64,000 bases of DNA from the NCBI GenBank assembly GCA_949840775.1, contig CATKXO010000005.1, positions 29,811 to 93,810 of the forward strand, read 5' to 3'. Source of the stretch: an uncultured bacterium (GTDB lineage: Bacteria; Bacillota; Clostridia; Oscillospirales; Oscillospiraceae). The number at the start of each line of letters is the position of its first letter. Position 1 is the first letter of the stretch. Below, piece by piece: positions 26,977-27,734 of this stretch. The translations under genes were made by a program, and so were the position numbers. The notes below the pieces were generated by a model, which was not told the DNA's origin, made no database searches, and saw only the letters and a program-made list of their open reading frames with translations.

Positions 26977-27246
26977 TCAATCCAGTTCACTGTGTCGGTT
27001 GATGTTGATGCCCAACTCCTTGAAAAAAAGCATAACCAGTGCATCGACCCGCTCAAAGCACTCTGGGTCATTGTAGCTATCGTCCTCCAAAATACGACGG
27101 ATGGCCTCCAGCGTTCGAATGGCCCGATTCTCCATTGCTTTCTCAATTACTGTAGGATGGATATGCTCCACATAATCCAGCATCATTTGACCCACTACCT
27201 CATGATAAAGAGTAATTGGTATGTCCTGTTTGTTCTGACTGCTCAT
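26977..27246 (-). CDS. 89-residue protein of unknown function paired with an RHH regulator
   Basis: A small, mostly helical protein (MSSQNKQDIPITLYHEVVGQ..., ending NINRHSELD). No catalytic motif or membrane segment is visible. I chose the ATG at 27246. It lies inside the upstream RHH gene, overlapping it by 47 bp in another frame, which implies tight translational coupling. The arrangement resembles toxin-antitoxin or element-maintenance pairs, but the protein does not match a toxin family I recognise. Confidence 0.7.
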   Translation of the reverse strand: MSSQNKQDIPITLYHEVVGQMMLDYVEHIHPTVIEKAMENRAIRTLEAIRRILEDDSYNDPECFERVDALVMLFFKELGININRHSELD

Positions 27247-27448
27247 TTTCTCCGCCTTCCTCCAGTGTGTAGTGCTCCAGCGCGTACTCCAAAAACAATC
27301 CAATCAGCTCATTTCGGCTGCGCCCTGTATCTCTAGATACGTCTTCGATTTTTTTAACCATTGATTCCCTTAACCGGACGGAAAATGTCTTATAGCCATC
27401 CTGGCCTTTTGGATGCTTTGTGGTTAAAATCAGCATGTCATTCCCCAT
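27200..27448 (-). CDS. Ribbon-helix-helix (CopG/Arc-type) DNA-binding protein
   Basis: An 82-residue protein. GYKTFSVRLRESMVKKIEDV gives the beta strand and first helix, then SRDTGRSRNELIGLFLEYAL gives the second helix, the classic RHH pattern (about 18-57). A charged tail follows. RHH proteins are dimers that bind operators and usually repress their own operon. Upstream lies a perfect 11-bp inverted repeat with a third partial copy, a good candidate operator. The ATG at 27448 follows GAGGTGAGCCT. Confidence 0.85.
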   Translation of the reverse strand: MGNDMLILTTKHPKGQDGYKTFSVRLRESMVKKIEDVSRDTGRSRNELIGLFLEYALEHYTLEEGGENEQSEQTGHTNYSLS

Positions 27449-27497: not shown

Positions 27498-27561
27498 TAT
27501 GTTCAAAATATGTTAGGATTTCTATCCGTTTTTGAACATAACTATAATCGCTTTTGAATAT
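27498..27561. promoter_or_regulatory. Inverted-repeat operator candidate upstream of the RHH gene
   Basis: TATGTTCAAAA (27498-27508) and TTTTGAACATA (27530-27540) are exact inverted repeats with centres 32 bp apart. A third partial arm, TTTTGAATAT, follows at about 27552-27561. The region is AT-rich against a GC-rich genome. Confidence 0.6.
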
Positions 27562-27585: not shown

Positions 27586-27614
27586 TTGTCAAACCCTGAA
27601 AACTGTGATATACT
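27586..27614 (+). promoter_or_regulatory. Promoter of the candidate small RNA
   Basis: TTGTCA (27586-27591), 17 bp, TATACT (27609-27614). The start site is predicted at about 27621. No credible reading frame lies between it and the terminator at 27734. Confidence 0.8.
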
Positions 27615-27620
27615 GTTTTT

Positions 27621-27734
27621 GGTCAAAAGACCGCCTGTGCATATTTGTCCTTGCGTGCCGGCCGGGCCTCCTCCCGGCTGGTATAAAAAAAGATTCGGGC
27701 CCCTGGAGCAGCTTTCGCTCCAGGGGCCTTTTTT
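27621..27734 (+). ncRNA. Candidate small RNA with a CCUCCU loop
   Basis: A promoter and a strong terminator bracket about 114 nt in which three stems can be drawn. Stem 1 is GGUC-AAAA-GACC at the 5' end (27621-27632). Stem 2 is a 10-bp stem (27657-27666 with 27673-27682, including two G-U pairs) closing a six-base loop CCUCCU. Stem 3 is the 12-bp terminator with U6. The CCUCCU loop is complementary to the AGGAGG ribosome binding sites used by genes around it. It lacks the GGAAGGAAGC-type apical loop of SRP RNA and is shorter than 6S RNA. No open frame here has a ribosome binding site. Confidence 0.65.
27698..27734. terminator. Strong bidirectional terminator
   Basis: A perfect 12-bp stem GGCCCCTGGAGC/GCTCCAGGGGCC (27698-27709 with 27717-27728). 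T6 follows on the plus strand, ending the small RNA, and a T7 run follows on the minus strand, ending the amidohydrolase operon. Confidence 0.92.

Follow-up and report, generated by a model that had tools for sequence, protein, structure and literature searches.

The closest described counterpart of the RNA reported here is NfeR1 of Sinorhizobium meliloti, a 123-nt molecule that founded the alpha-proteobacterial family ar14 (Rfam RF02344) (PMC10746234). NfeR1 is described as folding into three hairpins that share one unpaired motif, CCUCCUCCC, on stems that are unlike in sequence, and as silencing through pairing with the translation initiation region, which was tested experimentally; together with NtrBC it forms a double-negative loop (PMC10746234). 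Among Firmicutes, RoxS of Bacillus subtilis has four C-rich regions and binds the Shine-Dalgarno sequences of some of its targets (PMC5419742). Here we describe a locus at 27620-27734 on the plus strand of the window (the whole 64,000-nucleotide stretch of DNA analysed, from an uncultured member of the Oscillospiraceae) that very probably specifies a functional RNA, one of a structured small RNA family that appears to be real, new and restricted to a single genus. The locus is predicted to encode an independent non-coding transcript of about 112 nt, laid out as a 5' hairpin, an unpaired CCUGUGCAU, a pyrimidine-rich linker, a hairpin of 10-12 bp whose C/U-rich loop is typically CCUCCU, and finally a terminator (Table 1). 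To our knowledge, the small RNAs of Oscillospiraceae, which are common gut bacteria, have been little studied, and no such RNA is described among the matches listed for literature on Lawsonibacter, Flavonifractor and Flintibacter in combination with small RNAs.

Table 1. Features of the RNA locus and of its neighbouring genes, in window coordinates
Feature	Coordinates	Strand	Basis
Promoter TTGTCA-17-TATACT with extended -10 TG	27586..27614	+	Sequence inspection; form kept in 19/19 homologues
5' hairpin GGUC-AAAA-GACC	27621..27632	+	Alignment of 19 sequences
Unpaired CCUGUGCAU, most conserved stretch	27634..27642	+	Exact in 18/19 aligned sequences
Variable pyrimidine-rich linker with second C-rich stretch (UCC-like)	27643..27654	+	Alignment
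Main hairpin, 12 pairs, hexaloop CCUCCU at 27667-27672	27655..27684	+	Fold, simulation, covariation
Intrinsic terminator, 13-bp stem and T run	27697..27734	+	Stem 27697-27729, then T's
Gene for a small ribbon-helix-helix (CopG/Arc-like) protein, adjacent to the RNA and divergent	27200..27448	-	Pfam RHH_1 just below cut-off
89-aa ORF overlapping the 3' end of the ribbon-helix-helix gene	26977..27246	-	Sequence

The window RNA is like NfeR1 in its size, in displaying an anti-Shine-Dalgarno motif in a hairpin loop, and in having stems that vary in sequence (PMC10746234). It differs in having one CCUCCU loop rather than the three CCUCCUCCC motifs of NfeR1, and in belonging to Oscillospiraceae rather than alpha-proteobacteria; for NfeR1 targets and Hfq independence are known. 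It is not a member of ar14: the covariance model of that family scores 26.5 bits here against a gathering score of 58.8, and in place of three CCUCCUCCC-bearing hairpins the window RNA has a single CCUCCU loop, a 5' loop of AAAA and a terminator loop that is not C-rich. It may nevertheless work like NfeR1. With RoxS it shares the status of a Firmicute small RNA with C-rich regions, but RoxS is reported to have four such regions and known targets (PMC5419742), and the window RNA matches no Rfam family at cut-off. The Betaproteobacteria toxic small RNA (RF02278) aligns weakly over CUCCUC and the terminator, with 21.2 bits where its cut-off is 50, and its architecture is unlike. An Rfam search of the whole window, clostridial RNAs included, returned a single match at gathering score, a tRNA at 952-1024, and the RNA locus itself reaches no family's cut-off; weak alignments to ar14 (26.5 bits), His_leader (25.0 bits) and trpB (24.8 bits) lie far under theirs.

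The original prediction had proposed a discrete small RNA enclosed by a TTGTCA-17-TATACT promoter and an intrinsic terminator, and both signals are present where it placed them. The -35 element TTGTCA occupies 27586-27591 and the -10 element TATACT, preceded by TG, occupies 27609-27614, with a 17-nt spacer. By itself a promoter-like site is unremarkable, 2 being found in this stretch where 1.8 would be expected by chance. Among homologues the same form is kept in 19/19, with a spacer of 17 (16 genomes) or 18 (3 genomes), and the promoter lies 6-7 nt upstream of the 5' hairpin in every one. The segment 27620-27740 folds at -61.5 kcal/mol, compared with -39.2 +/- 3.6 for shuffled versions (z -6.2; none of 200 equalled it). 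A terminator was recognised by script in 14 of the 19 homologues and by eye in four more (G005, G007, G376 and G358), and in G364 none was seen by either means. The terminator at 27697-27734 may also end the convergent amidohydrolase gene, found at 11 of 18 examined loci. It could be argued that there is no functional RNA here, only a promoter-like sequence beside a bidirectional amidohydrolase terminator and a hairpin without meaning, given that a lone consensus promoter readily arises by chance and that the terminator could work for the minus strand too. We regard this as very improbable: the stem covaries, the 5' element is nearly invariant, the promoter is found in 19/19, and the RNA is kept in the 7 of 18 examined loci that have no amidohydrolase gene. 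A discrete small RNA is instead well supported by the conserved promoter, the structure, the strand, the covariation, the lack of an Rfam match and the lack of a credible ORF.

The central hairpin had been predicted as a 10-bp stem (27657-27666 with 27673-27682) presenting exactly CCUCCU as a hexaloop; these coordinates are right, and the stem extends to 12 pairs when G-U is counted (27655-27666 with 27673-27684). The loop has exactly the core sequence of the anti-Shine-Dalgarno region of 16S rRNA and is complementary to AGGAGG. CCTCCT occurs at 120 sites on the two strands of the window, and only one of them, 27667-27672, is enclosed by a stem longer than 6 pairs; across 200 Markov-simulated windows the longest stem round a CCTCCT was 9 pairs, and none of the 200 reached 10. 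Covariation in the stem, proposed as a check on the prediction, is clear, with changes on both sides in 9 of the 12 pairs over 19 sequences. For the structure as a whole it extends to 11 of 19 pairs and 33 cells, a level reached by none of 500 shuffles, while the best slid control gave 5 pairs and 12 cells. The expectation of an invariant CCUCCU loop was borne out in its general character but not in its letter. A C/U-rich anti-Shine-Dalgarno loop is kept in 18/19 homologues, but CCUCCU itself is found in only 11/19 (ten times as the exact hexaloop and in G358 inside a wider loop); 7/19 loops are otherwise C/U-rich (G028, G005, G014, G002, G007, G376 and G364), and that of G374 reads GAGU. The pairs closing the CCUCCU loops vary as well (GGG/CCC, AAG/CUU, GAG/CUU, AGG/CCU). 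With its own promoter (19/19) and terminator (14/19 by script plus 4 by eye), no ORF, and a conserved, exposed C-rich anti-Shine-Dalgarno motif (C/U-rich in 18/19), the locus shares these features with the class of small RNAs whose C-rich loops mask ribosome binding sites.

The best-conserved part of the RNA is not this loop but the 5' hairpin and the CCUGUGCAU that follows it, which the original prediction had overlooked. The mean frequency of the commonest base over 19 sequences is 0.99 in CCUGUGCAU, 0.96 in the 5' hairpin and 0.84 in the loop. The 5' hairpin is paired in 100% of cells, with both-side changes at two pairs, both contributed by G364, and its loop, AAAA in the window, is GAAA in most homologues and of GNRA type in 17/19 by eye. 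Downstream, a weak GC/GC mini-helix with the preceding GCA may close the linker 27643-27654; two of its pairs can form in 19/19 and a third in 8/19, without covariation. This distribution of conservation invites another reading, namely that the RNA works mainly by binding or titrating a protein through the 5' hairpin and CCUGUGCAU, with the C-rich loop secondary. The behaviour of G374, which loses the loop and nearly keeps the 5' part, points the same way, as does a linker without exceptional complementarity to the initiation regions tested. We nonetheless think this unlikely, as a C/U-rich loop persists in 18/19 though its stem varies, and the analysis suggested no candidate partner protein.

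Coding potential had been dismissed in the original prediction, and comparison of the homologues agrees. Because the linkers of different homologues vary in length by single bases, which argues against a reading frame, we judge coding not credible. A GTG frame inside CCUGUG does recur, with a length that is not constant, and only G014 has a Shine-Dalgarno-like sequence ahead of it; no common small ORF with a Shine-Dalgarno sequence exists across the 19 homologues. The pairs also report on the strand: G-U cells number 19 over 10 pairs and A-C cells 9 over 3 pairs, which favours the plus strand. We considered a minus-strand feature, either the 3' end of the amidohydrolase gene or a small ORF beginning AUGCACAGG, and set it aside, as the promoter is on the plus strand and the G-U pairs favour that strand; no conserved minus-strand frame was seen by eye among the homologues.

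How widely is the RNA distributed? A blastn search over 60 genomes gave clear homologues, judged from the alignments, in 12 besides the window's own, and most other matches were short or in unlike sequence. These 12 and the window sequence made up the 13 sequences from which the covariance model R1 was built. Within the genus, 19 of 64 genomes each contain a single strong R1 match (49.6-90.3 bits), and the next best match reaches 30.6 bits; 13 of these 19 sequences are those that built the model, and the homologues are related, such that the counts are not independent events. The RNA is patchy within the genus, not being recognised in 45/64 genomes. Among 300 genomes sampled from the family, covering 106 genera, 35 gave a match at E <= 0.1, and the one strong match is the locus in the window itself. 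The best of the others, at 32.4 bits, lies on the minus strand at about 1501-1558 of L022 in G241, from another genus of the family. Its E value of 2.0e-5 for its own genome is below chance expectation over the 300 genomes, and it has a GGTC...GACC hairpin and GCCTGGGCAT, then a GC-rich hairpin, with no CCUCCU hairpin by eye. Seven other weak family matches were inspected and taken as chance. An exact-pattern scan of 84,980 genomes, using a pattern that demanded the common form of the 5' element and would be escaped by divergent relatives, returned 16 stretches. Fourteen of them belong to the RNA family (at least 68.7 bits), in records named Lawsonibacter, Colidextribacter, Flintibacter muris, and uncultured Firmicutes, Bacillota or Oscillospiraceae; these 14 genomes appear identical to most of the 19 and add no independent cases. 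Carriers named in this way include Flintibacter muris DSM 110149 and Colidextribacter sp. OB.20. The other two, in Thioclava and Pontibacter (18.8 and 19.7 bits), were dropped as chance. There was no match in plasmid collections, nor in viral collections, where the exact pattern was scanned. So far as seen, then, the family is restricted to one genus.

What might such an RNA do? The likeliest mechanism, to which we give a probability of roughly 0.6, is that it is a trans-acting antisense blocker of ribosome binding sites. Once transcribed from its predicted promoter, the C-rich loop would begin pairing with AGGAGG-type Shine-Dalgarno sequences of mRNAs in trans, and ribosome binding would be blocked. 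The conserved linker, which is complementary to AUG-CACAGG and a preceding purine-rich stretch, might add further pairing, specificity or a protein contact. Consistent with such a role, 19/64 genomes carry one strong copy each, the RNA block is kept despite differing downstream genes and, by crude gene calling, AGGAGG precedes 10 of 50 gene starts in the window. Against it, CCUCCU matches so many ribosome binding sites that alone it offers little specificity. A more elaborate version would have two anti-initiation elements, a loop that mimics the anti-Shine-Dalgarno tail of 16S rRNA, and a linker whose complement spells out an entire initiation region (AAGGA-CAAAU-AUG-CACAGG in the window, with a spacing that varies between homologues as in real spacers). 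Such an RNA would mask the Shine-Dalgarno sequence and the start codon together, possibly on energy-metabolism mRNAs such as that of the [FeFe] hydrogenase of group B1, with a start region, AAGGAGCGUACAUAUGCACAC, that partly fits the linker, and would possibly be wired to the ribbon-helix-helix regulator encoded next door. We offer this version as a quite unlikely one.

Target prediction with the linker gave no gain over shuffled linkers across 321 initiation regions. Mean duplex energy was -16.46, compared with -16.48 for shuffled linkers, and 21 of 200 shuffles did at least as well as the best linker energy; the shuffles kept base composition only, and the 321 crude regions represent part of one genome, with genes called as longest ORFs and starts chosen by Shine-Dalgarno pairing, such that some of these 'genes' are surely false. 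A search with ATATGCACAGG found 13 places in 11 of 13 genomes, nine of them the RNA locus itself. The looser pattern AGGAN{4,10}ATGCACA found 32 places in 4 genomes. Starts of this form that recur include those of the [FeFe] hydrogenase (group B1), recO, and greA-like and uvrA-like genes (the last two by eye), and they recur because protein starts are conserved. The hydrogenase was identified by TIGR04105; in L148 (G000:C13) its initiation region, AAGGAGCGUACAUAUGCACAC, is partly complementary to the RNA's conserved linker. By eye, a hydrogenase starting AUGCACAC or AUGCAUAC is present in 17/17 RNA-carrying genomes and in 6/13 without the RNA, a pattern that is drawn from 30 examined loci, out of 56 genomes that gave a match, and that is confounded by relatedness. 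The start AUAUGCACAC is also found in the RNA-less relatives G357, G380, G035 and G363, and among the 321 regions the hydrogenase ranks 77th by linker and 175th by loop. Because of this confounding and these ranks we claim no target, the group B1 hydrogenase included.

The neighbourhood of the RNA offers a different candidate for regulation. The ribbon-helix-helix product scores 20.0 bits with Pfam RHH_1 against a cut-off of 20.5, and its gene adjoins the RNA in 19/19 homologous loci, on the opposite strand in 13 and on the same strand in 6 (G002, G005, G007, G025, G373 and G376); in those six the gene lies upstream of the RNA, whose own promoter is intact. The six same-strand genes (L054, L055, L056, L062, L064 and L065) are 46-63% identical to that of the window, compared with 69-80% in the other 12 relatives. 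The 89-aa ORF matches nothing in Pfam or NCBIfam at E 0.1, and is near the RNA in 18/19 loci, with G030 the exception; distant relatives of it occur elsewhere in several genomes, two more of them in G000. We considered whether the RNA and this gene pair form one control module, in which the RNA represses translation of the pair and/or the DNA-binding protein controls the RNA, as in mixed transcription factor-sRNA loops, with the NfeR1-NtrBC double-negative loop for precedent (PMC10746234). The constant adjacency in two orientations is consistent with such a module, as is the 89-aa ORF, whose initiation region often has GGAGG and whose loop energy is about -12 in several genomes, compared with a mean of -9.45 over 321 starts in a ranking run without a shuffled control. 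But the loop energies on the pair's ribosome binding sites, though good, are unexceptional, departing from the mean for other starts by no more than one or two standard deviations. An ABC-F gene lies on the same side in 18/18 loci examined and also in G358, which therefore represent one chromosomal site, and synteny alone explains the adjacency. ATGTTA/TAACAT-type repeats recur by eye upstream of the ribbon-helix-helix gene, at about 27500-27550 in the window and in homologues; they are perhaps that gene's own operator, and they sit at its promoter, with no overlap with the promoter of the RNA. On balance we consider a control module improbable. In G380 (L112) and G035 (L108), homologues of the ribbon-helix-helix and 89-aa genes are kept with no recognisable RNA there; in G380 a terminator and the amidohydrolase gene directly follow the two genes, which looks like loss of the RNA.

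The locus provides a testable small RNA family, with a structure supported by covariation, in gut bacteria related to Lawsonibacter and Flintibacter. If the RNA acts as a blocker of ribosome binding sites, the anti-Shine-Dalgarno-loop device of alpha-proteobacteria has apparently arisen independently in a distant phylum, an origin that we infer because there are no strong matches outside the genus.
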